Shown one piece after another: positions 19,415-33,878 of a DNA stretch of 64,000 bases. Numbering within the stretch: the stretch's first letter is position 1; every line of letters begins with the position of its first letter. The notes beneath the pieces are model-generated. The model was not told the origin of the DNA. It was given only the letters and a program-made list of their open reading frames with translations, and made no database searches. The stretch comes from Rubripirellula reticaptiva (lineage in GTDB: Bacteria > Planctomycetota > Planctomycetia > Pirellulales > Pirellulaceae): contig NZ_SJPX01000002.1 in the NCBI RefSeq assembly GCF_007860175.1, positions 1,488,001 to 1,552,000 of the forward strand. The letters are read 5' to 3'. The translations under genes and the position numbers were made by a program.

Positions 19415-20581
19415 ATGAAGCCGAACGCCACCACTGTCGACCTCTCCGCCGACACGATCGAGTCCGCCATCCGAGGGATGGGCATCGCGATTCCGAAGTT
19501 CCGAGCTGGTCATCTAGCGAGTGCCAATTTCGCCGACAAAATGTCGTGCACCACGTCAAGCCAGTCTCGAAAGGTCGCTGCGCTCTACCGGCGCACCGGA
19601 ATCGAGCACAGGGGCAGTGTCTTGCTGGAAGAGAACCACGATTTAGAAATCGTCAACGAATTCTACCCACCGCTGATTTCGCCCGAAGATCGTGGCCCGA
19701 CCACCCAACAACGAAGCGATCGATACGCTCTCGAAGCGCCTCAATTAGCGACTCAAGCGTCATTGAAAGCTCTGAAATCCAGCGGCACAACGGCAGATCA
19801 AATCACTCACCTGGTGACCGTTTCATGCACCGGATTTAGCGCCCCCGGCGTCGACATTGAATTGATCGATCGTTTAGGTTTACCGCCGACGACCCAGCGC
19901 GTTCAAGTTGGATTCATGGGATGCCACGGTGCCATCAACGGTCTGCGCGCCGCGTCCGGTTTGGTCGCAGCCTCGCCAGACGCCAACGTGCTGATGTGCA
20001 GTGTCGAACTTTGCAGCCTGCACTACCAATACGGATACGACCCCGATCGCATTGTTAGCGGAGCGTTGTTTGCTGATGGTGCAGCAGCCGTCGTGCTCAA
20101 TCGCGCCCACACCGACGCCGCCCTTTCGGACGACACGAATGACTCGGCATTCGGGTCCATCGGATCCGTGGCTGCAACAGGTTCCTACTTGGTCGCCGAC
20201 AGCCGGGATGCGATGACTTGGTTGATTGGCGACAACGGCTTTGAAATGACGCTGTCCGCCAAAGTCCCTGGGCTGATCGAAAAGTACCTAAAATCATTCA
20301 TGGTGGATTGGCTTGCTGGCCAAGGCGAAACGATTGAATCGGTTCAGGGCTGGGCTGTTCATCCGGGCGGATCGCGAATCTTGACTGCGGCCGAAACTAG
20401 CTTGAAACTGGATGCCGACGCTCTCAGCGTTTCTCGCAAAGTTCTGTCGGATCACGGCAACATGTCATCAGCGACGATGCTGTTCATTTTGCAACGTTTC
20501 GCAGAACAGGGTCGCCCGAAACCATGGGTAATGCTGGGCTTTGGCCCTGGGCTTGAAATCGAGGTCGCACTGATCCGATAG
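19415..20581 (+). CDS. Type III polyketide synthase (chalcone/stilbene synthase family)
   Basis: This 388-residue homodimer-type enzyme condenses malonyl-CoA onto a starter CoA. The Cys-His-Asn triad is complete: Cys170 in GFMGCHG, His316 in WAVHPGG and Asn349 in DHGNMSSATM. The C-terminal GFGPGLEIE motif is also present. Length and motifs match bacterial type III PKSs that make alkylpyrones, alkylresorcinols or tetrahydroxynaphthalene. A methyltransferase is encoded convergently 33 bp downstream and may tailor the product. Starter unit and chain length cannot be predicted from what is visible. Confidence 0.95.
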   Translation: MKPNATTVDLSADTIESAIRGMGIAIPKFRAGHLASANFADKMSCTTSSQSRKVAALYRRTGIEHRGSVLLEENHDLEIVNEFYPPLISPEDRGPTTQQRSDRYALEAPQLATQASLKALKSSGTTADQITHLVTVSCTGFSAPGVDIELIDRLGLPPTTQRVQVGFMGCHGAINGLRAASGLVAASPDANVLMCSVELCSLHYQYGYDPDRIVSGALFADGAAAVVLNRAHTDAALSDDTNDSAFGSIGSVAATGSYLVADSRDAMTWLIGDNGFEMTLSAKVPGLIEKYLKSFMVDWLAGQGETIESVQGWAVHPGGSRILTAAETSLKLDADALSVSRKVLSDHGNMSSATMLFILQRFAEQGRPKPWVMLGFGPGLEIEVALIR

Positions 20582-20614
20582 GCGCTAGTTCGATAGACGT
20601 TGATTAATAGTTGC

Positions 20615-21484
20615 CTAGCTCGACGGCAGCCAGATCTTTCCGCCGTCGCTCGTGGATGCCTGCGTCGCGCCAACGCGTTTGGCTTTGATTCGAACATACG
20701 GGGGAATAAATTTGGCACGGTGGCCAAACGAGCCGACCTCGGCATCCGCTTTGGCGTGCAGCGGTTCAGTCAGATCCTCGATCACGAACCCAGATCGACA
20801 CATCCCGCCGACGATCTCTTCCCATCGATGCAAGTATTCCACGGCTCCCGACTCTCGCAGTCGCTTTGTCGCGCTGCGGGTCACCGCGTGCGTCGAAGCA
20901 GGCGGAGCCGGAATCGGTTGGTTAGGTTGGCTGGACGATTTTGTTTGGCGATAGTAGGGATGCAGATTCGAATAGCCGCCGCTTGAATTTGGCTCGACTG
21001 AGCTTTGCAAACTGCCCGGCTGCTTGTGCTGGCTGATGTAGAGTGCTCCGGACCGCGAGACTCTTGCGACCTCAGCAAAAACGCGTGCGATGTTGGGCAC
21101 ATAACAAGTGCTGACTGGCTGGATCACAATGTCGAATTCACCGCCCGCGAACATCGACAAATCGTCCATCGAGGTCTCAAAAAGCCGCAACGAGTAGCCA
21201 CGTTCGGCCGCCACGCGGCGGTCGAGTTCTAGCATCGCGCCGCTCAAATCAACCACCGTGACGTCAGCTCCGGCGGCCGCATAGAGCGAACTCTGGCGAC
21301 CACCGCCTGCGGCCAAGCACAGCAAACGGCGGCCCTGGATCGACTTTCCCAACCAGCCGGCGGCATCGACCGTCCTTAGTGGATCTGCCAGCTCGCAGTC
21401 TTTCGCCGGCCGGCACAGCGGATCGCCAGCCGCCGCCATCGAGTCGTAAACCTTTCGGTTGGTTCGCAAATAGTCGTCAGACAT
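20615..21484 (-). CDS. SAM-dependent methyltransferase next to type III PKS
   Basis: The 289-residue protein has a class I methyltransferase core: motif I LLCLAAGGGRQSSLYAAAGA near residues 53-72, VTVVDLSGAML, and a motif IV-like VIQPVSTCYVPN. A low-complexity Pro/Ser-rich insertion lies around residues 165-200, after which the C-terminal part resumes. It is convergent with the type III PKS, an arrangement seen in small polyketide clusters, where it could O- or C-methylate a pyrone or resorcinol. That pairing is inference; it could equally be independent. Confidence 0.8.
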   Translation of the reverse strand: MSDDYLRTNRKVYDSMAAAGDPLCRPAKDCELADPLRTVDAAGWLGKSIQGRRLLCLAAGGGRQSSLYAAAGADVTVVDLSGAMLELDRRVAAERGYSLRLFETSMDDLSMFAGGEFDIVIQPVSTCYVPNIARVFAEVARVSRSGALYISQHKQPGSLQSSVEPNSSGGYSNLHPYYRQTKSSSQPNQPIPAPPASTHAVTRSATKRLRESGAVEYLHRWEEIVGGMCRSGFVIEDLTEPLHAKADAEVGSFGHRAKFIPPYVRIKAKRVGATQASTSDGGKIWLPSS

Positions 21485-23245: not shown

Positions 23246-24181
23246 CTAACCAACCCGGGGCAGGACAATCTCGAGAGTTTTTCGTAAAGCCGCGCCGCTT
23301 GCACGAATCCCCTGAACTTCTTTGGGCCAAAGATCAATTTCCAAACGATCAATCACGCCCTTTCTTCCCACCACAGTGGGTACTGATAACGCGACGTCAC
23401 GAATGCCATAGCAGCCTGATTGGACGCTGCTGACGGGCAGAATCTTGTGCTGGTCCAGGACAATTGCGTCGATGACGTCACGAATCGCAATCCCGACGGC
23501 AAAACCAGCGCCGCCCTTTCGCTTGATCACTTCGGCACCACTGCCGCGTGTTCGCGTGAACAGTTGGTTGGCCAAATTGGCGTTCCAACCTGGATACTTG
23601 TCCAGCGGCAAACCGGCGATTGTCGCGCTACTCCAGATCGGCACCATCGAATCCCCGTGCTCGCCAAGGATCAGTGCTTTGGTTTGAGTAGGCGGCGCTT
23701 TCAGTTCGGCTGCGATCAACGAACAGAACCGGATCGTGTCCAACTGTGTTCCCAACCCGATCACTTGGTTGACGGGCAACCCAAGCGTTTGGGCAGCAAC
23801 GTAAGTCAGAATATCAACAGGATTGCTGACCACCAATACGATCGCCGAGGGCTTAGGACCAGCCGCTTTGACGTCACGCAAGATTTGCACGAACAAGTCC
23901 GTGTTGCGATTGATCAAGTCCAAACGCGACTCGTCCGGCTTGCGTCGCAGTCCCGCCGTGATGCAGATCACATCGCTGGAAGGAATGTGTTCATAGCCGC
24001 CGCCCGAGATCACTTGATCAGCGACACTGGGGCTGCCGTGTTGTAAGTCGAGCGCTTGCCCAACAGCCATTTCTTGGTTGACGTCCAGCAACGCAATCTC
24101 GCTGGCGATGCCGCCACACTGCAGCGCGTAGGCCGCACAAGAGCCAACCAATCCGCCGGCGCCGATGATGGATACTTTCAT
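23246..24181 (-). CDS. BMC-associated L-lactate/malate-type dehydrogenase
   Basis: This 311-residue NAD-dependent 2-hydroxyacid dehydrogenase is the last gene of the microcompartment operon. It has GAGGLVG (residues 7-13), NAD-selecting Asp33, mobile-loop Arg86, NPVDILT and the catalytic His in GEHGDS. The specificity position is Arg80 (AGLRRKPDESR), as in malate dehydrogenases; lactate dehydrogenases have Gln. In the planctomycete BMC pathway a dehydrogenase is expected to reoxidise NADH. ATG 24181 is used because the open frame to 24244 adds residues before the Rossmann strand. It lacks an obvious encapsulation peptide, so it may act outside the shell. Confidence 0.88.
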   Translation of the reverse strand: MKVSIIGAGGLVGSCAAYALQCGGIASEIALLDVNQEMAVGQALDLQHGSPSVADQVISGGGYEHIPSSDVICITAGLRRKPDESRLDLINRNTDLFVQILRDVKAAGPKPSAIVLVVSNPVDILTYVAAQTLGLPVNQVIGLGTQLDTIRFCSLIAAELKAPPTQTKALILGEHGDSMVPIWSSATIAGLPLDKYPGWNANLANQLFTRTRGSGAEVIKRKGGAGFAVGIAIRDVIDAIVLDQHKILPVSSVQSGCYGIRDVALSVPTVVGRKGVIDRLEIDLWPKEVQGIRASGAALRKTLEIVLPRVG

Positions 24182-24291
24182 GATTTCAAATCGTGTTGGG
24201 AGTAGATCGTTGAGGTGCTGAATACCAGCGGCGATGTCTGCCAAGGCGTTGGCGACGACCGCGCGGCGTTTTCCAGTTGCGAATAGAGTTT

Positions 24292-24319
24292 GCGGTTACG
24301 AATACAGTTCGTTTGCCGC
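24292..24319 (-). other. Intercistronic hairpin downstream of the aldolase gene
   Basis: Immediately after the aldolase stop (minus strand) an imperfect stem can form: GCGG (24292-24295) with CCGC (24316-24319) and ACGAA (24298-24302) with TTCGT (24308-24312). It has no U-tract and could be an mRNA-stabilising or partially terminating hairpin in the 138-bp gap before the dehydrogenase gene. Confidence 0.3.
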
Positions 24320-25189
24320 CTAGTTTTGGCGCATTTGACGCATCACTTCATCAGTGATCGCTTTGACTAGCGCTTCTTCGGTGACGCCTGCTGGCATGCC
24401 ATTCTTGGCACCCACATCAGCCGACGGCTTCAGTGACGGCGGTGCAGGGAAGGCACGACGAGCAACGCCCGAATCGGCCCACGAATCGCGGAAGATATCG
24501 TTTGCACAGATGTCACAGTTTTCATACTCAGGCGTATTGCGTGGATCCTTGTAGCCCCACTGTTCCTTCAGGTCCAACAACTCTTGTGACTTCTCGCCAC
24601 TGAGGTAAGAGACCCCACCTAGTTGCTTGGCAAGAATCAGCATGCGGCAATAAGCGTCAAGAATCTCAGTCCACCAATATGCTTGTTCAACCGTTTCGCC
24701 GTAACTGACCGTACCGTGATTGGCGAGGATCATGACGTTAGTGCGATTGACGAATGGAATGATCGTATCAGCAAAGCTCTGCCCGCCTGGTGTTTCGTAC
24801 TTGGTGATCGGCACGTCACCCAGGAATACTTCAACTTCGGGAAGGATGCACTGTGGAATCGGCTCGCGAGCGATCGCGAAAGCAGTTGCGTGCGGCGGGT
24901 GGCAGTGCACGACACTCTTGATGTCTTCGCGTTGGCGATAGATTTCTAGGTGCAAAAGAGCTTCGCTTGACCGTTTCTTGCGACCCGACAATTGCTTGCC
25001 AGTCATGTCGACGAGCGAAATATCGTCAGGCGTCAAAAACCCTTTACAGTGCAATGTCGGCGTGCAAAGTACTTCGTTTTCGCTAACCCGAACGGTGATG
25101 TTGCCATCGTTAGCCGCAGCGAATTGACGGTCGTAGATGCGACGACCGATGTCGCACATGTCTTGCTTGATCTTATGAAGGTTTTGCAT
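24320..25189 (-). CDS. Class II aldolase (fuculose/rhamnulose-1-phosphate type) with C-terminal encapsulation-like helix
   Basis: The 289-residue enzyme has a class II aldolase/adducin fold: N-terminal NDGNITVR, phosphate-binding SSEALLH, zinc ligands in VVHCHPPH, the catalytic Glu in PEVEVFLG and a third ligand in NHGTVSY. The family cleaves L-fuculose-1-phosphate or L-rhamnulose-1-phosphate to DHAP and L-lactaldehyde. Beyond the catalytic domain is a Cys pair (CDIC), a Pro/Gly-rich linker and a terminal amphipathic helix (TEEALVKAITDEVMRQM) resembling a BMC encapsulation peptide. ATG 25189 replaces the longer open frame to 25243, which overlaps the preceding shell gene. Confidence 0.92.
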   Translation of the reverse strand: MQNLHKIKQDMCDIGRRIYDRQFAAANDGNITVRVSENEVLCTPTLHCKGFLTPDDISLVDMTGKQLSGRKKRSSEALLHLEIYRQREDIKSVVHCHPPHATAFAIAREPIPQCILPEVEVFLGDVPITKYETPGGQSFADTIIPFVNRTNVMILANHGTVSYGETVEQAYWWTEILDAYCRMLILAKQLGGVSYLSGEKSQELLDLKEQWGYKDPRNTPEYENCDICANDIFRDSWADSGVARRAFPAPPSLKPSADVGAKNGMPAGVTEEALVKAITDEVMRQMRQN

Positions 25190-25239
25190 ATCAGTTTTTT
25201 CGTTTGAGTATCTGACTAAGGGTTCTTTTTCGCTTGGCG

Positions 25240-25521
25240 TCAATCCAAGTCCACTTCATCCAGTAACGCCACGATGGACGCATCAATCGGTTTCACATCC
25301 GGCCGAAACGGCTGCGCCGCTTCCGGGCCTTCTGCGATCGCCACCAAGTCTCCAATACCGGTGCCGCATAAATCCCAAGCAACGACAGTTTCGCCACCAA
25401 GCGGAAACGTGTCGATTTGTTCAATCGACTCTACCACTTCAACACAACGAAGCTTCGCACCAGCCATGGCTGGATGAGCTTTCGACAATGTCACCGATCC
25501 AATCGTTCGGGCCATTTTCAT
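25240..25521 (-). CDS. BMC-P shell vertex protein (EutN/CcmL family)
   Basis: The 93-residue protein is a pentameric EutN/CcmL/CsoS4-type vertex protein. It shows the beta-barrel pattern beginning ARTIGSVTLSKAHPAMAGAKLRCV, the central AWDLCGTGIGDLVAIAEG and a C-terminal DASIVALLDEVDL. Met1 (25521) overlaps the upstream gene's stop by four bases (ATGA); Met3 is an alternative. It is one of three different BMC-P genes in this locus; sequences differ strongly, so they probably occupy different vertices or tasks. Confidence 0.9.
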   Translation of the reverse strand: MKMARTIGSVTLSKAHPAMAGAKLRCVEVVESIEQIDTFPLGGETVVAWDLCGTGIGDLVAIAEGPEAAQPFRPDVKPIDASIVALLDEVDLD

Positions 25522-26102
25522 TTGCTCACGCTCCTAAATCGAGTGATCGCTGATATCACGTTCACCGCTGCGATCAAATTCAATCGTTTCATATCCAAAA
25601 CCCACACCTGAGGATCAACTTCGCGTCCAAAACGATTGACATCATCGAGAGAACCGATCATGACCGCTCGCTTTCCACTGCCGAACTGACTGGCAACTTC
25701 AAGCGCCGGTGCATCGCTTAGCACCACGCTGGCCGCAGCCAAATTGATACCGCGACGGACCAACTGTGCCTCGACGGATTCCGCCCTTTGATGGTCGGAA
25801 TCCATGATTTTGACAGAGCAGGATGGCTTGCCGATCGATTCCTGGGTGATGACCGCGTCACGCGTGATCGTGATGTTTCGTTGTTTTGCCTCGTCCTTTG
25901 CCGCCGGTGTCACAATGGCTCTTGCAGCAATCGTGATCGTGGCACCAACCGCGTACTGTCCAATCGTCTTGGCGTCAATGATTTTGGATTCAACCACAAC
26001 GGATTGACTCGCTTTCAACCGCGCAATCACCTCGCCGACGATCCGAGCCAAGACGGCTGAATCGATCGCAGAGAGAATCGTAGGGTTGGGTCGGGTCGGC
26101 AT
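25518..26102 (-). CDS. Uncharacterised BMC-associated protein with N-terminal encapsulation-like helix
   Basis: The 194-residue protein sits among shell and enzyme genes of the microcompartment operon. Residues 10-29 form an amphipathic helix (SAIDSAVLARIVGEVIARLK) reminiscent of encapsulation peptides and of the PduM N-terminus. A short middle motif, IVTPAAKDEAKQRNI near residues 62-76, resembles one in PduM and EutQ-related BMC proteins. The C-terminal half (about 105-190) alternates strands and helices around a VMIGS turn. No catalytic motif is seen. It could be a structural or assembly factor like PduM; homology is my reading by eye. It begins six bases after the preceding BMC-P gene. Confidence 0.6.
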   Translation of the reverse strand: MPTRPNPTILSAIDSAVLARIVGEVIARLKASQSVVVESKIIDAKTIGQYAVGATITIAARAIVTPAAKDEAKQRNITITRDAVITQESIGKPSCSVKIMDSDHQRAESVEAQLVRRGINLAAASVVLSDAPALEVASQFGSGKRAVMIGSLDDVNRFGREVDPQVWVLDMKRLNLIAAVNVISAITRFRSVSK

Positions 26103-26108
26103 TGCGGG

Positions 26109-26363
26109 CTAGTCCAAAATTCCCATCACAGTCCAACGGGCAGGTGTATCTATATTTTTTGTAAATTCGCGTGCAAGTGTCCCGTCGCTGGTCAACATCA
26201 CGCGGTCACCGCGTCGACACCCCAGCACGTCCAGAGCAATCAAGGGTGGTCCGTCGGGCATCTCGTTCAAGAGCAACAACTGGACAATCACCAAACGTTG
26301 ACCTTGAAGACTTTTATCTTTGACGGTCGCACGAGTTGATCCTAGGACGCGGGCAGTTTGCAT
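26109..26363 (-). CDS. BMC-P shell vertex protein, short variant
   Basis: The 84-residue EutN/CcmL-type protein has the N-terminal strand pattern (MQTARVLGSTRATVKDKSL), IVQLLLLNE, LDVLGCRRGDRVMLTSDG and ends with a TVMGILD strand. It lacks the longer C-terminal tail seen in the BMC-P at 27889. ATG 26363 is favoured over the open frame to 26390 because the latter would overlap the aldehyde dehydrogenase gene. It starts four bases after that gene's stop. Confidence 0.88.
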   Translation of the reverse strand: MQTARVLGSTRATVKDKSLQGQRLVIVQLLLLNEMPDGPPLIALDVLGCRRGDRVMLTSDGTLAREFTKNIDTPARWTVMGILD

Positions 26364-26367
26364 CGGG

Positions 26368-27792
26368 TTAGACCACTCGCAATTCGTCAATCATGCTGCA
26401 GCGGCGTTCCCGAGTGAACGTGTTGGGCGTTGTGACGCCTTCGCCCGTCGGACCGGCAATCGAAAAGGACAGATAGCCTTCGCCACCAAGGCCCAGCGAC
26501 GCCATGCAAGGACCATTTTTGACGTACAGCGTTGTGTCCAATTCGCGTCCCATCTTCGTCATGTTGTGAACGTTGCGAGAGTGGATGATGGCGGTGTGCC
26601 GGAATCCGTGCTCGTAATGTTTCGCAAGTGCGATCGCATGATCAACGTCACGAGCACGCACGAATGGAATAAAAGGCATCATTTGCTCGACGGTAACGAA
26701 CGGATGATGCTCGTCCGTTTCGCCGAACAACAATTCAGTTCCCTCGGGAACACTGACGCCGGCTGCCTGGGCCAGAACGGACGCGTCGCGTCCGATGTAG
26801 TCTTTGCAAGCTGCATCGTGTTGGTCGTCGCCGACTTTTACGATCGCCTTGCTGGTCAGATTTGAAATTTGAATTGCATCAAGCTGAACGGCACCCGCAC
26901 GTCGCATGGCAGCCATCATCGCGTCGAAAACACTGTCGACGACAAAAACTTCCTTTTCTGCGATGCACAGCAAGTTGTTATCATACGCACCGCCCTGAAT
27001 GATGCAGCGTGCGGCATTGTCCAAATCGGCCGTTTCGTCGACAACCACAGGCGGGTTGCCAGGTCCAGCAACGATGGCTCGCTTGCCGCTGTTCAGTGCC
27101 GCGCGTCCAACTGCAGGTCCACCCGTCACACAGATCAGCGAGACTTGGCGATGCTTGAACAGAGCTTCGGCTGTTTCGAGAGTCGGTTCGGCGATCACAC
27201 AAATCAGATTGTCGATGCCAACTTCGGCAGCGATGGCTTCATTGAATCGTCGCACGCCTTCGGTTGCCACGCCTTTACCCGATGGATGCGGGTTGACCAC
27301 AACCGTGTTGCCACCGGCCAACATGCTGACGGCGTTGCCGGTGATCGTTGGCAAGCTATGAGTCACCGGCGTGATTGCACCAATCACACCAAACGGTGCT
27401 CGTTCGATGATCGCCAAACCGTGGTCGCCGCTGTAACACTTGGTTTCCAAGAACTCAGTCCCAGGTGACATTTCACCAAGAGCTCGCAGCTTTTCAATTT
27501 TGTGTTCCGGGCGACCGATCTTGGTTTCGGCCATTTCCATCAACCCGAGTTCTTCGCAATTCTCGATCGAAATGCGGCGAATGATGTCGATGACTTGTTT
27601 CCGAGTCGCCATCGACCGAGTGCGAAATTCTTCGAACGCAGCACGAGCAGCCGTGACCGCCGAGTCCGCATCATAGAAGACTCCGTTCTTGCCACCGGCC
27701 TGGGACGAAGCCCCATTGGACTTGGGCATCGGGCCAACTTCGGCCAAGACTTGAGCGACAACGCTGCGAATGGTGTTTTCGTCGAAATGCAT
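26368..27792 (-). CDS. CoA-acylating aldehyde dehydrogenase with N-terminal encapsulation peptide
   Basis: This 474-residue enzyme oxidises an aldehyde (here probably L-lactaldehyde) to the acyl-CoA with NAD+. Residues 4-18 form an amphipathic helix (DENTIRSVVAQVLAEVG) followed by a Ser/Gly-rich linker, the typical PduP/EutE encapsulation signal. The catalytic domain carries the nucleotide-binding PHPSGKGVA and CVTGGPAVG segments, then the catalytic Cys276 in NNLLCIAEK. The C-terminal GPTGEGVTTP motif is typical of PduP. It sits between BMC-P genes in the operon. Confidence 0.95.
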   Translation of the reverse strand: MHFDENTIRSVVAQVLAEVGPMPKSNGASSQAGGKNGVFYDADSAVTAARAAFEEFRTRSMATRKQVIDIIRRISIENCEELGLMEMAETKIGRPEHKIEKLRALGEMSPGTEFLETKCYSGDHGLAIIERAPFGVIGAITPVTHSLPTITGNAVSMLAGGNTVVVNPHPSGKGVATEGVRRFNEAIAAEVGIDNLICVIAEPTLETAEALFKHRQVSLICVTGGPAVGRAALNSGKRAIVAGPGNPPVVVDETADLDNAARCIIQGGAYDNNLLCIAEKEVFVVDSVFDAMMAAMRRAGAVQLDAIQISNLTSKAIVKVGDDQHDAACKDYIGRDASVLAQAAGVSVPEGTELLFGETDEHHPFVTVEQMMPFIPFVRARDVDHAIALAKHYEHGFRHTAIIHSRNVHNMTKMGRELDTTLYVKNGPCMASLGLGGEGYLSFSIAGPTGEGVTTPNTFTRERRCSMIDELRVV

Positions 27793-27846
27793 AGGATGAG
27801 ATACGTTGTTGGTTTATAGGAATCAGGAAATAGATTTTGCGGGCAA

Positions 27847-27869
27847 GCAAGCAATCCGGGATCGCTTGC
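27847..27869 (-). other. Intercistronic hairpin upstream of the aldehyde dehydrogenase gene
   Basis: GCAAGC (27847-27852) and GCTTGC (27864-27869) can pair across an 11-nt loop in the 96-bp gap between a shell gene and the aldehyde dehydrogenase gene. It could set the stoichiometry of shell versus enzyme by affecting mRNA decay or readthrough. There is no U-tract, and a 6-bp stem can occur by chance. Confidence 0.25.
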
Positions 27870-27888
27870 ACTGCGAAGTCAAGAAGAC

Positions 27889-28203
27889 CTAACTTCCATT
27901 TCTGTCGTAGACGTTTCGTTTTTCAATGTGAACGCTATCAACGATGCCGATCACGACCGCATCGATAGGTAGCTCTTTCGTTTCCGGTGTCAGGCGAGCA
28001 CTGCTGCCTTGGCACACCAACACATAATCGCCTTCACCGCTTCCGAGTGTGTCGACGGCAATGAACGTTCGTCCGGTCGAAACCATTGACGCACGTTTTT
28101 TGTCTTCCAGTCGGTAGGGTTCAACGACCAGCAATTTATGGCCGGTCATGGATCCGACTTTTTGCGTCGCGACAACCGAACCGGTAACTTTGGCAATGAA
28201 CAT
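27889..28203 (-). CDS. BMC-P shell vertex protein with C-terminal tail
   Basis: The 104-residue EutN/CcmL-type protein starts MFIAKVTGSVVATQKVGSM, contains LLVVEPYRL and FIAVDTLGSGEGDYVLVCQG, and has the PIDAVVIGIVDSV strand. A 12-residue polar tail extends past the usual end. It is the third and most canonical BMC-P of the locus. It starts 11 bases downstream of the acetate kinase stop on the same strand. Confidence 0.92.
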   Translation of the reverse strand: MFIAKVTGSVVATQKVGSMTGHKLLVVEPYRLEDKKRASMVSTGRTFIAVDTLGSGEGDYVLVCQGSSARLTPETKELPIDAVVIGIVDSVHIEKRNVYDRNGS

Positions 28204-28214
28204 TGAGGGAGTGC

Positions 28215-29501
28215 CTAAGCAGATTTATCGGTTTCTTGCAAAAGCTCGACACATTGCCGGGCGACGACCAGTTCTTCGTTGGTTGGGATCACCCACAATT
28301 CAGTCCGGCTATCGCCAGCGTGAAATGAACCTTCACCCTTGATCTTCTTGTTGGCTTCGCCATCGGCGACAATGCCAAGCTCTTCCAAGCCCGCCACAAT
28401 CGCAGCTCGCGTTTCCTTGCCCTTTTCACCGATTCCGCCGGTGAACACGATGGCATCGACCCCACCCATCGCGACAATCATTCCGCCCATGTGACGACGA
28501 ACTTCTTCGACAAACACATCCAGAGCGAGTTGTGATTTTTCGTCGCCATTGGCAGCGGCGAGTTCCAAATCTCGCATATCGCCACTCTTATCACTGAGCC
28601 CAAGTAAGCCGCCTTCGCTGGCGAGTTTCCCCAACACTTCGTCGAGTGTTAACCCAGTTTTTTCGATAATCAACGGCAACGCGAACGGATCAAAGTCACC
28701 GACGCGATTGTTCTGCGGCAAACCGGTTTGCGGCGTCATGCCCATCGTCGTCATCACACTTTCACCGCCAACAATCGCGGTCAACGAACTGCTGCCGCCA
28801 AGGTGACAAGAGATCACGCGTGCATCGCTGCGTCCCAACACTTCGGCCACGCGGCCGGCAATGAATCGGTGCGAGGCGCCGTGAAAGCCATATCGACGAA
28901 TATGTAGTCCGTCCGCCCAAGCACGCGGGATCGCGTATTCCCGTCGCGACGAAGGAATCGTGCGATGAAAGTTGGTTTCAAAGGCTGCCACCAACGGCAG
29001 ATCAGGGAACCGCTCTCGCAACAACTTCATTGCGGCGATGTAGGGTGGATTGTGGGCCGGTGCAGCAGCGTTCATTTCCGTCATTGCCGCAAGCACATCG
29101 TCATCCACAACGAACACACCCGACAATCGACCACCGTGAACCGCTTTGAATCCAATCGCTACGATCTCCGATGCATCCTTTAGGGCACCGTGATCTGGAT
29201 CGGTCAACTGTTCCAAACAAGCCGACACTGCCAAACCATGGTCTGGCACCGACATCGAACGTTCGTCTTTCCAGTCACCGATTTCGACCTCGCAGTGACT
29301 GACTTCTTCGCCAATTCGATCGACTGCACCTCGAGCCAAACATTGCCCGTTGGACATATCGAACAAACGATACTTGAAGCTGGTCGATCCTAGGTTCGCT
29401 ACAAGAACAAGCACTGACTTAACACTTTTCAGCTGGAGAAAGGTACAGGACGAAAGGCCAGCGGCCGAGCAATTCTGCGTTACGGTTTGGGTGCCAACCA
29501 T
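28215..29501 (-). CDS. ackA: Acetate kinase
   Basis: AckA-family kinases convert acetyl-phosphate (or propionyl- or lactoyl-phosphate) to the acid with ATP formation. The product carries NLGSTSFKYRLF, FGFHGASHR-like YGFHGASHR, the phosphate loop (ISCHLGGSSSLTAI) and the FTGGIGEKG adenosine motif. As called from ATG 29501 it is 428 residues, with a roughly 30-residue N-terminal extension. A GTG at 29414 would give the normal 399 residues, so the start is uncertain. Its place in the BMC operon points to lactoyl-phosphate as substrate, recovering ATP downstream of PduL. Confidence 0.92.
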   Translation of the reverse strand: MVGTQTVTQNCSAAGLSSCTFLQLKSVKSVLVLVANLGSTSFKYRLFDMSNGQCLARGAVDRIGEEVSHCEVEIGDWKDERSMSVPDHGLAVSACLEQLTDPDHGALKDASEIVAIGFKAVHGGRLSGVFVVDDDVLAAMTEMNAAAPAHNPPYIAAMKLLRERFPDLPLVAAFETNFHRTIPSSRREYAIPRAWADGLHIRRYGFHGASHRFIAGRVAEVLGRSDARVISCHLGGSSSLTAIVGGESVMTTMGMTPQTGLPQNNRVGDFDPFALPLIIEKTGLTLDEVLGKLASEGGLLGLSDKSGDMRDLELAAANGDEKSQLALDVFVEEVRRHMGGMIVAMGGVDAIVFTGGIGEKGKETRAAIVAGLEELGIVADGEANKKIKGEGSFHAGDSRTELWVIPTNEELVVARQCVELLQETDKSA

Positions 29502-29543
29502 GACACCGCCGAACGTTTGACAAGGCCGTCTACAGCACGCGTT

Positions 29544-29813
29544 TTACGACAACAATGCCGCAGCCAAGCCTTCGGCTGGACGCGGGATGATGTGGCTGCC
29601 AACCAGTTCACCTACTTGTGCCGCAGCTGCGGCACCCGCTTCGACTGCAGCACGAACACTGCCGACATCACCACTGACGACGGTCGTCACGTAGGCGCCA
29701 CCGATGTCAATTCGCTTGACGATTTTGACGTTGGCGGCTTTGGCCATTGCGTCGGTCGCTTCGATCAGGGGCAACAAACCTTTGGTTTCAATCAATCCGA
29801 TTGCATCATTCAT
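29544..29813 (-). CDS. BMC-H hexameric shell protein (89 aa)
   Basis: This is a single-domain Pfam00936-type shell protein. Recognisable parts are AIGLIETKGLLPLIEATDAM, KRIDIGGAYVTTVVSGDVGSV and AAAAAAQVGELVGSHIIPRP. The pore loop (the residues after IGGAY) is neutral. It is paired with a second BMC-H gene 60 bp upstream. Together these two would tile most facets of the shell; no BMC-T gene is visible in the window. Confidence 0.95.
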   Translation of the reverse strand: MNDAIGLIETKGLLPLIEATDAMAKAANVKIVKRIDIGGAYVTTVVSGDVGSVRAAVEAGAAAAAQVGELVGSHIIPRPAEGLAAALLS

Positions 29814-29873
29814 GAGAGAGCTTCTTCGCTGAGTTGATAGTGGAAAAATAGGTCACAGCAGTCGACGGTGCGA

Positions 29874-30167
29874 CTACTTTTTGGCGGTAGGGAACTTCAA
29901 AATGGAAGCCACGTCTTCGTGGGGACGAGCGATTACCTGAACGCTGGCAACTTCGCCGACGCGTCCAGCAGCCGCAGCACCCGCATCAACTGCGGCTTTG
30001 ACCGCGGCGACATCACCGGTCACGAATGCGCTACACAAGCCGCTGCCGACCTTGTCCCAGCCCATGAATTGAACGTTTGCTGCTTTCATCATTGCGTCAC
30101 ATGCTTCGACCAAGGCGATGAAGCCTTTGGTTTCAATCATGCCGAGCGCTTCGCTAACTTTTGCCAT
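29874..30167 (-). CDS. BMC-H hexameric shell protein (97 aa)
   Basis: The second BMC-H protein has [21 protein letters not shown], a pore-region segment [20 protein letters not shown] and [20 protein letters not shown]. The extra C-terminal residues ([10 protein letters not shown]) distinguish it from its neighbour. A cysteine close to the pore segment (GSGLCSAF) could alter permeability. A 170-bp gap separates it from the PduL gene upstream. Confidence 0.95.
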
Positions 30168-30337
30168 CGTTAAAACTGCCTTATTGGAAAGGGAAAGAGG
30201 TCTCGGTTATCAGATATCAAGGTTCTAAAATCTCTGGTCCAGTGTCACTGATCTAAAACCACTGACTTGGGACGCAGGGTTCGGCTAACGTCCGATGCAG
30301 GATCTCTCCCAAACATCAAACGCCTTTCACCGGGTAC

Positions 30338-31069
30338 TTACTTTTTCTCGCAGCCGCAGCCGCCTTTTTTCAAAGTCACTTCGGTTGCGGTGTCCAAGTT
30401 GCAAGCGTTGCCTTCATCGGTGTCGATGTGGACTTCCAACTTGGCTGCTTCGTCGGCGCGAACCAAAACGTCTTCGAAGGTGACGCTGCAATCCGGGCTA
30501 ACAATTTTTAGTTTCATCATGTCACCGTTCTGAACACCGTAATGATCGCAGTCGGCAAAATTCATGTGAACGTGACGAGCGGCGCGAATGACGCCTTGAG
30601 TCAGTTGCACACTGCCAGCCGGTCCGACCAGAACGCATCCGGGCGTGCCATCAATCTTGCCGCTGTGGCGGACGGGTGCGTCGATGCCCAGCGAGATCGA
30701 ATCTGTCAGTGCCAATTCAACTTGGCTGAATGGACGAGTGGGGCCTAGGACGCGAACGCTGCCGAGCATGCGCCGACGTGGACCGACAACCATCACGGTT
30801 TGTTCGGCGGCGTAGAAGCCGTCTTGATAGAGGTCTTTTTCGGGTTTGAGCACCGAACCGGCACCAAACAGAATCTCGACATGTTCGTCGGTCAAGTGAC
30901 AGTGGCGCGCTGAAATGCTGACACGCAAATTTGGCTTGCCATCGATCCAGCCAGGCGGGTTCGCGGCGCCACGTGCCGCAACAGGCGTGGACGCAGGACC
31001 ACCGGATTGGCGAATCGCGTTTCGGACTAGCTGCTCGATTACACTTCGATCGATCGTAGATGCAGTCAT
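30338..31069 (-). CDS. pduL: PduL-type phosphate acyltransferase
   Basis: PduL converts acyl-CoA to acyl-phosphate, regenerating CoA inside the microcompartment. Two zinc-binding sites are visible: ARHCHL near residues 54-59 and RHVHM near 165-169, with the conserved HIDTDEGNA near the C-terminus. The first about 20 residues ([15 protein letters not shown]) form an amphipathic helix followed by an Ala/Pro linker, as in encapsulated PduL proteins. The C-terminus ends GCGCEKK. It is the first catabolic gene after the DeoR regulator. The likely substrate here is lactoyl-CoA. Confidence 0.95.
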
Positions 31070-31100
31070 ATTTTTGTATGAGCCTTTAAAAATTGCTCGC

Positions 31101-31889
31101 TTAGATTTTTGATTCCGAGGCGGAAGCCAAGACTAGTTTGACGTCCGCAAATTCAAGATGCTCTTTCCAACTGTTTTCAATGCCCTCGTCGGATACGACC
31201 GTGTCTACTTCCTGTAATCCGCACAACCGACTCAGGCTGACCTTTCCGAACTTGGTGCTGTCTGCGACCACAATCGTTTGATCGGCCGACTCTAGCATCG
31301 CCTTCTCGCTCTCGACCAACATCATGTTGCTGTTGAAGAAACCACGTTCGGTGATTCCTGCAACCGACAAAAACACTTTTCCAACATTGATGCTTCGCAG
31401 CATCGAATCGGCCATCGGCCCAATCGTGACCGCCGTTCGCCCCCGCACGCATCCGCCAATCATCACCAAATCAATGGAGTCGCTGGTCGATAACAAGTGG
31501 GCGACCGGCAGGCTGTTGGTGACGACCTGCAGAGGTCGATTCACCAAGTGACGTGCCAGCTCGTAGGTCGTACTTCCGCCGCCAAGCAAAATCGTGTCAT
31601 GGTCTTCGATCATCGCCGCGGCCAATTCGCCAATCGCCACTTTGGCCGGCCACGAATCGTCGCGTCGGTTTTCGAAGATCTGCATCGTGTCCGGCTCACC
31701 GGTCCAAAATGCGCCGCCATGCGTTCGCCTTGCCTGACCCTCTTTTTCAAGCTGCTCTAAGTCTCGTCGGATCGTCGATTCGCTAACCTCTAGCGCCGCT
31801 GCCAGCTCGCCAAGCGATGCAAAACCGCGTGCTTGAACCATCTCTCGCAGCCGCTCGCGACGCGTTTCGCTCGTTAATTGGCCAGCCAC
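31101..31889 (-). CDS. DeoR-family transcriptional regulator of the BMC locus
   Basis: The 262-residue regulator has an N-terminal winged helix ([37 protein letters not shown] region, about residues 10-47) and a DeoR C-terminal effector domain of sugar-phosphate isomerase type ([31 protein letters not shown]). Sugar phosphates are typical ligands. The start is GTG at 31889 with an unusually good AGGAGG six bases upstream. Placement at the head of the BMC operon is the pattern known for planctomycete BMCs. It probably represses the operon and itself until a deoxysugar phosphate appears. Confidence 0.95.
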
Positions 31890-31922: not shown

Positions 31923-31948
31923 TGACAGTTTTCTCTCACGAGTGACAG
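31923..31948. promoter_or_regulatory. Candidate DeoR operator: direct TGACAG repeats
   Basis: TGACAG occurs at 31923-31928 and again at 31943-31948, exactly 20 bp apart (about two helical turns), in the divergent region between the DeoR gene and the SDR gene. Direct repeats in this spacing suit DeoR-type regulators. This is inference from spacing and position only. Confidence 0.35.
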
Positions 31949-32089
31949 AAAGCAATCACCCGAACCAGGATTTGAGAGATTTTCTTCAAATTTTCGTTTG
32001 TTGCCCGCAATCGACCCACGCACATGGGGCAGGTACGCTAATTTCGACGTGACGAACTCCCAAATCTCGAGGGCGAAAAAGAGGCATCA

Positions 32090-32890
32090 ATGACGGTATT
32101 GAACGGAAAGCGGGCGATTGTCACCGGTTCATCACGAGGAATCGGGCGAGGAATTGCCCTGCAATTGGCTGCCCAAGGCGCCGAAGTCATCATTAATTTT
32201 CGCAGCCACCCGGACGAAGCGGCAGACGTGGTTGCCCAGTGCGAAGCGGTCGGTGGAAAAGCTCACATGATCGCGGCCGATCTTGGCATTCAATCCGAAG
32301 TCGAGCGTTTGGTGGCCGAATCGGCAGACTTGATGGGGGGACTGGATATCGTCGTCAGCAATGCCGCTTACAGCGATCGCCACTTGATGCTGGAATCGGA
32401 TTTGAATGAATTCCACAAGACGATCGACATCAGCATGTGGGGCGCGTTTTATCTGGTGCGAAGCAGCGCCAGATTGATGGTCGAAGCAGAAAACGGCGGC
32501 AACATCGTTGTCATCAGCAGCCCCCACGCTCACATGGCGATCCCCGGCGCGATGGCCTACAACATGGCCAAAGCCGCGAACGACCAAATGGGAAAAACCG
32601 CCGCCTGCGAACTGGCCCAGCACGGCATTCGCGTCAACATCATTCACCCAGGCTGGACGGACACTCCCGGCGAACGAAAGTTCTTTTCCGAAGAAACGCT
32701 GGCAACCGAAGCTGCAAAGCTGCCACTCGGACGACTTGGTGCTGCCGAAGAAATTGGCCGTGGCGTGGTGTTCCTTTGCGATCCGGCCAGCCAGTACATT
32801 ACTGGCAGCACATTGACCATCGACGGCGGAATTCAATTGCCGTGGCGAGAAATGTATCGCACAAAAGAGAGGCCATCGGGCGTTTCTTGA
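32090..32890 (+). CDS. SDR-family NAD(P)-dependent dehydrogenase
   Basis: The 266-residue short-chain dehydrogenase has the cofactor motif TGSSRGIG (residues 12-19), NAAYS, the catalytic Ser in VISSPH and the YxxxK motif (YNMAK). GSTLTIDGGI near the end is typical of classical SDRs such as glucose 1-dehydrogenase. AGAGG lies upstream of ATG 32090. It is divergent from the BMC operon and shares its intergenic region, so it may be co-regulated. A role oxidising a sugar is plausible but unproven. Confidence 0.9.
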   Translation: MTVLNGKRAIVTGSSRGIGRGIALQLAAQGAEVIINFRSHPDEAADVVAQCEAVGGKAHMIAADLGIQSEVERLVAESADLMGGLDIVVSNAAYSDRHLMLESDLNEFHKTIDISMWGAFYLVRSSARLMVEAENGGNIVVISSPHAHMAIPGAMAYNMAKAANDQMGKTAACELAQHGIRVNIIHPGWTDTPGERKFFSEETLATEAAKLPLGRLGAAEEIGRGVVFLCDPASQYITGSTLTIDGGIQLPWREMYRTKERPSGVS

Positions 32891-33029
32891 CCCACTTTCA
32901 ATGTTTTCTAAAACTACTTCAACGCGTGGCGCAATGCGACGCGCGTCGGAGTTTTTCAATACGAGGCCGAACCTTGCAAAGCAGCAGTTGGCCTACACAA
33001 CGCCTTAATGAACGCGGAACGAAGGTTGA

Positions 33030-33878
33030 ATGATGGAATCTTGGCCTCTTGGTGTATTTGCCTCGGTCGACGCCGGCCTCGGCGTCGCTTGGAATGTGAT
33101 CTCGGAATTGAAAGTTCCCACGATACAGCTCCATGCACCCAATCCTGACAAACGAAACACGGCATCAGCGCAATCGCTTGCCGACCAATTGGCCGACATG
33201 GGCGTTCGCTGCACGGCGGTTTTTGGTGGGTTTGACGGCGAAAGCTATGCAGACATCCCAACGGTTGTGAAGACGATCGGCTTGGTCCCTGAATCAACAC
33301 GTCCAGCGCGACTGCAGGAGATGAAAGACATCTCCGACTTCACGAAAGCACTCGGCTGCGACGCGATCGCACTGCACCTTGGCTTTGTCCCCGAAGGCCC
33401 TTCGGCCGATGGCTACGACGGCATCGTCGCTGTGACTCGCGACCTTTGTGACCACGCCGCTGCGAACGACCAGTTCCTGCACTTGGAAACCGGCCAAGAA
33501 ACGGCGGACGGCCTGCTAGAGTTCATTCATCATGTCGACCGAGCCAACTTGAAGATCAACTTCGACCCGGCCAACATGATTTTGTATGGAACCGGCGAAC
33601 CCATCGAAGCATTGCGAAAAGTCGCCAAGCACGTCCGCAGCATCCATTGCAAAGACGGCACCTGGAGCGACCAACCCGGCGTGACTTGGGGCAAGGAAGT
33701 GCCGCTGGGGCAGGGCGACGTCAACATGGAATCGTACCTTCGAACCCTCCGGGAAATTGGGTACGAAGGACCACTAACGATTGAACGCGAGATCCCTCAG
33801 GACCCCGCGCGACAGAAAGCCGAAATAGGTGCAGCAATCGAACTGCTGACCAAACTCAGACAGCAAACCTTGGCTTGA
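33030..33878 (+). CDS. TIM-barrel sugar phosphate isomerase/epimerase
   Basis: The 282-residue protein belongs to the xylose-isomerase-like TIM-barrel family (AP endonuclease 2 superfamily). Metal-binding residues appear in HLETGQET, the NFDPANM strand, SIHCKDGT and the late LTIEREI strand. Such enzymes isomerise or epimerise ketoses, tagatose or inositol derivatives. It follows the SDR gene on the same strand after 139 bp. Together the two could act on a deoxysugar feeding the BMC pathway, but no substrate motif fixes this. Confidence 0.85.
   Translation: MMESWPLGVFASVDAGLGVAWNVISELKVPTIQLHAPNPDKRNTASAQSLADQLADMGVRCTAVFGGFDGESYADIPTVVKTIGLVPESTRPARLQEMKDISDFTKALGCDAIALHLGFVPEGPSADGYDGIVAVTRDLCDHAAANDQFLHLETGQETADGLLEFIHHVDRANLKINFDPANMILYGTGEPIEALRKVAKHVRSIHCKDGTWSDQPGVTWGKEVPLGQGDVNMESYLRTLREIGYEGPLTIEREIPQDPARQKAEIGAAIELLTKLRQQTLA

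Follow-up and report, generated by a model that had tools for sequence, protein, structure and literature searches.

A Planctomycetes/Verrucomicrobia-type microcompartment locus in Rubripirellula reticaptiva, with PvmL as a proposed shell-cargo linker and PvmO as a possible malate-type dehydrogenase

The 64,000-nucleotide window of Rubripirellula reticaptiva analysed here (contig NZ_SJPX01000002.1, positions 1,488,001 to 1,552,000, assembly GCF_007860175.1) carries 12 genes, all on the minus strand at 23246-31889, that on sequence evidence very probably form a complete catabolic bacterial microcompartment (BMC) locus of the Planctomycetes/Verrucomicrobia (PVM) type for L-fucose and L-rhamnose. 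The type is already known and, in planctomycetes, well documented; the locus extends it by one genome. Its gene content, order and shell composition, together with upstream enzymes encoded elsewhere in the genome, identify it as a standard PVM metabolosome. For two of its proteins we offer a tentative reading, rated just short of an even chance: PvmL may be the linker of BMC-T-free PVM metabolosomes, its TP module a portable anchor shared across metabolosomes, and PvmO a malate-type 2-oxoacid dehydrogenase.

Gene content and shell composition

Gene letters follow the Planctopirus limnophila cluster, pvmABDEGHIJKLMNO (PMC11958385), in which PvmJ is the aldehyde dehydrogenase, PvmG the kinase, PvmB PduL and PvmO the dehydrogenase (PMC6620236); the other letters were given to the window genes by position. 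Here and throughout, citations refer to excerpts of the papers named. The sequence-only reading had placed the 12 genes and named their families correctly, and in the profile search that it proposed 11 of the 12 proteins exceed Pfam cut-offs, the BMC-H and BMC-P candidates included.

The operon opens with pvmA (31101..31889), encoding a DeoR-family regulator (PF00455, 2.2e-48; PF08220, 7.3e-16), followed by pvmB (30338..31069) for the PduL phosphate acyltransferase (PF06130, 2.9e-70, residues 50-225), and by pvmD (29874..30167) and pvmE (29544..29813) for two BMC-H shell hexamer proteins (PF00936, 2.2e-26 and 3.7e-26). The acetate/propionate kinase is encoded by pvmG (28215..29501, start codon uncertain; PF00871, 3.1e-100; TIGR00016, 337.9 bits, cut-off 293.4) and the CoA-acylating aldehyde dehydrogenase (AldDH) by pvmJ (26368..27792; PF00171, 1.8e-34; NF011927, 629 bits, cut-off 403). 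Three genes encode BMC-P pentamers matching PF03319: pvmH (27889..28203; 8.1e-29), pvmK (26109..26390, its start overlapping the end of pvmJ; 5.5e-21) and pvmM (25240..25521; 1.4e-17). Between the latter two lies pvmL (25518..26102), encoding a 194-aa protein with no Pfam match at E 0.1. The signature enzyme, a class II aldolase, is encoded by pvmN (24320..25243, start uncertain; PF00596, 2.9e-48). The last gene, pvmO (23246..24181), encodes a lactate/malate-dehydrogenase-family protein (Ldh_1_N, PF00056, 3e-37; Ldh_1_C, PF02866, 2e-30); the dehydrogenase named earlier holds, and the start listed for it, 24244, gives way to 24181 (Met22 of the listed open reading frame) as the most likely one.

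The PVM type is defined by a PF00596 aldolase as signature enzyme with DeoR, PduL, AldDH, acetate kinase and a lactate/malate dehydrogenase (PMC4207490; further sources on definition and function are PMC8217296, PMC11958385, PMC8857213 and PMC6620236), and all of these enzyme and regulator families occur in the one locus. The composition claimed earlier, that of the Planctomycetes/Verrucomicrobia fucose/rhamnose BMC, thus fits both the description in PMC4207490 and the P. limnophila gene order. Among the 12 genes there is, as previously noted, no signature diol dehydratase, and no glycyl radical enzyme either; the rest of the genome was not searched for these. Across the genome, PF00936 detects two BMC-H genes only (1.6e-25 and 3.8e-25) and PF03319 three BMC-P genes only, and these searches found no satellite BMC locus in the 7.85 Mb, 13-contig assembly. 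The lack of BMC-T, first stated for the window, therefore extends to the whole assembly, within reach of PF00936. We considered and rejected the idea that the locus is defective for want of BMC-T, since PVM loci function without it (PMC4207490), which makes its absence normal for the type.

Conservation of gene order

Gene order was compared in 48 planctomycete regions fetched around aldolase matches and in an 80-locus set, the best 80 of 573 loci by PvmO similarity, in which loci without PvmO are thus unrepresented; the two sets overlap partly (L141 and L100, for example, are the same genome). All eleven annotated genes are visible in 50 of the 80 loci, with identical order in 50/50, and this recurrence argues that the grouping is not due to chance. 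The genes absent from the other 30 are always the upstream-most ones, as contig ends would produce.

Order was listed for 35 of the 48 regions and is uniform except in L077 (and in the partial L096): DeoR, PduL, BMC-H, BMC-H, kinase, BMC-P, AldDH, BMC-P, [PvmL], BMC-P, aldolase, dehydrogenase. The dehydrogenase was not found in four of these 35 (L073, L078, L079 and L080). Regions L099-L110 (n=12) were judged by gaps and missing genes, not by listed order. The aldolase stands alone in L077 and L109; L096 ends at a contig edge and L103 at the edge of the fetched region. A PvmL gene lies between two BMC-P genes in 43 of the 45 regions that have both (41 of at least 100 aa, two of 81-84 aa) and was not found there in L071 and L096. 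Aldolase relatives (E up to 1e-20) occur in 248 of 297 genomes of the class, not all of which need represent PVM loci. On a tree of PvmO plus aldolase (70 rows, quick method, simple model), the window locus falls among Rubripirellula, Rhodopirellula and Planctomycetaceae metagenome-assembled genomes.

Architecture of PvmL

A single-sequence search with the window PvmL across 294 genomes of the phylum gave matches in six, its own included, because the protein diverges fast; homologues were therefore identified by their position, flanked by two BMC-P genes, and share 17-43% identity with the window copy. The AlphaFold2 model (mean pLDDT 87.3) comprises an encapsulation peptide (EP) helix at residues 15-31 (26010-26060, minus strand), the TP module at residues 34-84 (25851-26003, minus strand; a small module at 34-81 in the model), a linker predicted with low confidence (85-94) and, at residues 95-194 (25521-25820, minus strand), an alpha/beta domain that we read, from AlphaFold2 and Foldseek together, as a degenerate RpiB fold. 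The first seven PDB matches from Foldseek are all RpiB (prob 0.96-0.99, E 0.0035-0.018), with none under E 0.001 and a poor global root-mean-square deviation that we attribute to the two-domain query.

Family models give a mixed picture across 36 PvmL homologues, the window copy included, which are not independent of each other. Pfam matches are to LacAB_rpiB in 12 (best 7.5e-7) and PDU_like in four (9e-4), and NCBIfam matches to TIGR02536 in 18 (best 7.2e-6), PduM TIGR04493 in 11 (2.4e-5), RpiB/LacAB TIGR00689 in seven (best 3.5e-6) and EutQ in six (6.7e-4). A profile of the 36 against the PDB reaches RpiB at E 0.0023 at best. The TP motif is present in 112 of 113 PvmL, a set that counts some genomes twice. 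CGTG, the RpiB active-site motif, occurs in 0/113, with an ANR/ANQ remnant in 36 of the 95 long ones.

The 80-locus set holds 71 PvmL, 15 of them of at most 119 aa (among them L139, which runs into Ns); L140 PvmL, at 145 aa, likewise stops after the TP module. Among the 70 readable proteins, 15 consist of EP and TP module only, with no RpiB-like domain. Nine short PvmL scanned at E up to 0.5 matched the PduM model in six cases and TIGR02536 in five, with no match in two. The AlphaFold2 model of a short PvmL (mean pLDDT 65.9) has the same order of strands and helices as the window model. Mapping the state of the RpiB domain onto the PvmO-aldolase tree requires five changes, three of them forced by starred branches, and none of 500 shuffles came down to that number. 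On this evidence, the RpiB-fold domain of PvmL is degenerate and has been lost or gained repeatedly. No mention of PvmL was found in the open-access papers searched; an earlier description, for example in Erbilgin 2014 or in supplements, is possible.

PvmL as a proposed shell-cargo linker

By analogy with EutQ and PduM, and from weak similarities, we propose that PvmL is a shell-cargo linker, with its EP helix directed to the cargo and its TP module to the shell. PvmL would thereby tie the enzyme core to the shell, and its RpiB-like domain would be catalytically degenerate and dispensable. Both parts of a PduM/EutQ-like linker, an EP helix and the shared TP module, are present in PvmL.

PvmL is no member of the PduM family as curated: the window copy scores 14.2 bits against the 50-bit TIGR04493 cut-off. 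The PduM model matches once in each of 17 of the 297 class genomes at E up to 0.1, with none over the cut-off and no match in the window's own genome. Eleven of the 17 align to the C-terminal end of the model (position 100 on), and all eleven fall at PvmL (six placed by coordinates, G194 by aldolase distance and four by fetched regions); among the remaining six, two contain stops and five map outside the aldolase region of the genome concerned (the sixth being that of G048). PduM resembles PvmL in having an N-terminal signal helix (PMC12108088) and a C-terminal segment that matches the TP module, and its middle part is unmatched in PvmL. PduM bears an N-terminal signal sequence, and on its loss core and shell come partly apart (PMC9132943, PMC12108088); PMC12108088 disputes the PduB-PduM link of PMC9132943. 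With no BMC-T found in the genome, no PduB-type partner, as in the Pdu BMC, was found either.

In E. coli EutQ, residues 2-49 align to a profile of the PvmL TP module with 14.6 bits (E 0.0023), against a best of 6.5 bits (E 0.77) in 2000 EutQ shuffles, and E. coli EutQ weakly matches TIGR02536 (0.025). Salmonella EutQ contacts the shell through residues 9-41 (H1/H2) and the cargo through residues 62-99, and its C-terminal domain is unneeded for assembly (PMC12487888); the first 100 residues are required for EutM pull-down (PMC4827028). Within the EutQ N-terminus (residues 1-99), the PvmL TP match overlaps the shell-binding H1/H2 part. The two proteins differ in the order of their parts and in their ends, a cupin kinase in EutQ and a degenerate RpiB fold or nothing in PvmL.

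If this proposal holds, one and the same TP module closes PduM, opens EutQ, recurs in TIGR02536 proteins and, with an EP helix, makes up the whole of a short PvmL. Enzyme-derived domains, such as the degenerate RpiB of PvmL and the cupin kinase of EutQ, would be interchangeable passengers, and the module common to PduM, EutQ and PvmL would offer engineers a small building block for attaching cargo. The locus exposes a gap in the general picture, namely how enzymes are retained by a shell that has no BMC-T and so no linker of the PduB type.

Two side observations concern Eut models: residues 6-92 of E. coli EutQ (L193:3803-4504) match the N-terminal end of the EutA model (1.6e-9), and the short PvmL of L141 shows a weak match to EutT 18-45. 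From these two matches, Eut proteins may carry the TP module widely.

Encapsulation peptides

The EP residue pattern was derived post hoc, after inspection of the AldDH, PvmL and aldolase termini. Counted over distinct proteins, it is present at the AldDH N-terminus in 103/109 homologues (~27733-27792, minus strand, in pvmJ), at the aldolase C-terminus in 118/121 (~24323-24382, minus strand, in pvmN) and at the PvmL N-terminus in 89/107 (6% in shuffled sequences); shuffled termini match in 0-11% overall. At either end, 0/115 dehydrogenases and 0/100 kinases match. PduL matches in 9/93; the window PvmB does not match the strict pattern, and a helix-like N-terminal extension (~31004-31057), as read from its sequence, precedes the PTAC domain.

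Active-site residues of PvmO

L-lactate dehydrogenase (LDH) carries Gln102 and Thr246 and malate dehydrogenase (MDH) Arg102, in LDH numbering; in this family Arg171 binds the substrate carboxylate, a group that lactaldehyde lacks. Five aligned LDH-family PDB sequences have Gln102 in four cases (Arg in 1y6j) and Thr246 in all five. PvmO instead has Arg102 and Ala246 (window residues 80 and 225) in 114/114 distinct proteins, the window copy included, and the catalytic residues Arg109, Asp168, Arg171 and His195 are intact in the same 114. Position 106 is Asp/Glu in 111, Asn in two and Gly in one. The resulting loop, Asp/Glu106 followed by Glu107, is unlike the canonical MDH loop, RKPGM, of the only other LDH/MDH-family member in the genome.

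PvmO does not score as an L-lactate dehydrogenase, with 276.4 bits against the 303.55 of TIGR01771 and Arg/Ala for Gln102/Thr246. The MDH models give 216.1 of 351.85 bits (TIGR01763) and 270.6 of 283 (PRK06223), so that LDH models score slightly above MDH models and no cut-off is reached. By these residues, the substrate would be a 2-oxoacid bearing a second negative group, such as oxaloacetate, with the acidic position 106 leaving room for doubt. If so, the NADH of the AldDH step would exit via oxaloacetate and malate, not via 1,2-propanediol. NAD+ recycling in an aerobic metabolosome is a second gap that the locus exposes. The invariance of Arg102 and Ala246 argues against the published role of PvmO, reduction of lactaldehyde to 1,2-propanediol (PMC6620236).

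Pathway and upstream enzymes

For substrates, pathway and induction we rely on published work on P. limnophila and relatives; gene content, order, families, EP-like tails and upstream enzymes elsewhere come from this genome. Outside the shell, L-fucose and L-rhamnose would be isomerised by FucI and RhaA, and the resulting ketose phosphorylated by a rhamnulokinase-like kinase. The encapsulated class II aldolase would cleave the ketose 1-phosphate to dihydroxyacetone phosphate and L-lactaldehyde, which the encapsulated AldDH would convert to lactyl-CoA, PduL to lactyl-phosphate and the kinase to lactate with formation of ATP. The BMC-T-free shell of BMC-H and BMC-P would hold lactaldehyde in, its confinement being the published rationale (PMC8857213, PMC11958385).

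The isomerases and the kinase are, as stated earlier, not visible in the window; they sit elsewhere in the genome, a point that the sequence-only reading could not include. RhaA lies at C3:738708 (PRK01076, 692 bits, cut-off 572), FucI at C6:332202 (PRK10991, 1009 bits, cut-off 775) and a rhamnulokinase-like FGGY kinase at C5:848283 (best model TIGR02627, 453.6 bits). Three of the four FGGY_C genes are nearest to rhamnulokinase, xylulokinase and ribulokinase; the open reading frame neighbouring the fourth, C1:1087643, is a glycerol-3-phosphate dehydrogenase.

A second class II aldolase, of 252 aa (L054:9888-10646, C6), directly follows fucI and lies upstream of a GH29 fucosidase; it is nearest to the aldolase half of bifunctional aldolase/SDR models.

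Alternative readings

Several results weigh against the readings given above. All matches of PvmL to the PduM, EutQ and RpiB models fall under curated cut-offs, and the window copy has no RpiB match and weak ones to TIGR02536 (0.0044) and PduM (0.0069). Hydrophobic-moment statistics, tried for EPs and rejected, do not separate cargo from non-cargo: median z is 0.61 for AldDH, 0.68 for PduL and 1.44 for PvmL N-termini and 0.82 for the aldolase C-terminus, and reaches 2.08 at the aldolase N-terminus and 1.10 at the dehydrogenase C-terminus, two termini at which no protein shows the EP pattern. The rhamnulokinase-like kinase lies under the TIGR02627 cut-off of 528 and no dedicated fuculokinase was identified among the four FGGY_C genes (C1:1087643 being unclassified), so that we only infer the phosphorylation of fuculose. 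The fucI-adjacent aldolase may give fucose a cleavage route that bypasses the BMC. The residues of PvmO misfit the published lactaldehyde-reducing step.

An enzymatic PvmL, that is, an active encapsulated RpiB-like sugar-phosphate isomerase or epimerase with no linker function, is favoured by its RpiB fold and by the matches of up to 12 of the 36 homologues to RpiB models, and RpiB-type enzymes are found in SPU BMCs (PMC8217296); the lack of CGTG in all 113 PvmL, the absence of the whole domain from 15 of 70 with five changes on the tree, and an identity to the window copy of just 17-43% make it very improbable. PvmO poses a closer question. Its 2-hydroxyacid-dehydrogenase residues, with Arg102 and Ala246 invariant in 114/114, the lack in lactaldehyde of the carboxylate partner of Arg171, and the EP pattern in 0/115 render it unlikely, though worth serious consideration, that PvmO converts lactaldehyde to 1,2-propanediol and regenerates NAD+ within the shell, as published, its unusual loop being adapted to the aldehyde. 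In favour of that role, PvmO is the sole gene besides AldDH that could regenerate NAD+ (PMC4207490) and is counted among metabolosome alcohol dehydrogenases (PMC6620236). We give least weight to the same metabolosome acting mainly on another ketose 1-phosphate (for example pentose-derived), with fucose cut in the cytosol by the fucI-adjacent aldolase. Class II aldolases are promiscuous (PMC4207490), the separate 252-aa enzyme does follow fucI, and PvmN falls under the cut-off of every FucA and RhaD model among the matches listed (25 of 33 families); but the locus type, the gene order and the RhaA, FucI and GH29 of the genome suit deoxysugars, and P. limnophila, with the same order, employs its BMC for both sugars (PMC11958385).

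Regulation and neighbouring genes

A palindrome, TTTCTGTCACTCGTGAGAGAAA, at 31930..31951, 40 bp upstream of deoR, is the likely PvmA operator on sequence grounds; PvmA would control the operon, probably through this site upstream of its own gene. The palindrome aligns upstream of deoR in 14 loci (the window and 13 others), imperfectly in some, and is the only perfect copy in window and genome. With up to 3 mismatches on both strands, the genome holds 10 matches against 15 for a control pattern, and none lies at rhaA, fucI or the rhamnulokinase gene. The genome matches other than the perfect copy carry 2-3 mismatches and do not outnumber the control matches. A wider PvmA regulon, considered as a candidate, is unsupported at this stringency. 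Scans for promoters and terminators yielded less than shuffled sequences did.

Divergent from deoR, at 32090-33878 on the plus strand, are an SDR oxidoreductase and a xylose-isomerase-like TIM barrel. The SDR gene (32090..32890, plus strand; PF13561) lies outside the core, possibly shares the regulatory region and has a match in 13 of the 80 loci. On the other side, at 19415-21484, a type III polyketide synthase of the chalcone synthase family stands beside a methyltransferase.

Comparison with known BMC systems

GRM5 and PVM-like BMCs share a class II aldolase and DeoR, as in the window, and GRM5 substrates are fucose and rhamnose (PMC4207490). The window locus differs from GRM5 in having neither a glycyl radical enzyme nor BMC-T, and has three BMC-P against two BMC-H genes.

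The closest comparison is with genome G354, which we take to be P. limnophila DSM 3776; the PVM BMC of P. limnophila was reportedly characterised by Erbilgin et al. in 2014, as citing papers have it. All 12 window genes recur there in identical order, with the same families and shell composition, and the comparison with P. limnophila suggested by the sequence-only reading thus yields 12 of 13 genes in equal order. The thirteenth, a 171-aa gene between BMC-P and AldDH (pvmI by position), is absent from the window. In family f3, BMC-P and AldDH stand 560-700 bp apart in 13 of the 14 loci holding both genes, and the pvmI candidate of P. limnophila (L097:8751-9266) encodes a hydrophobic-looking 171-aa protein with no Pfam match. 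PvmL measures 194 aa in the window against 286 aa in P. limnophila, which uses its BMC for fucose and rhamnose (PMC11958385).

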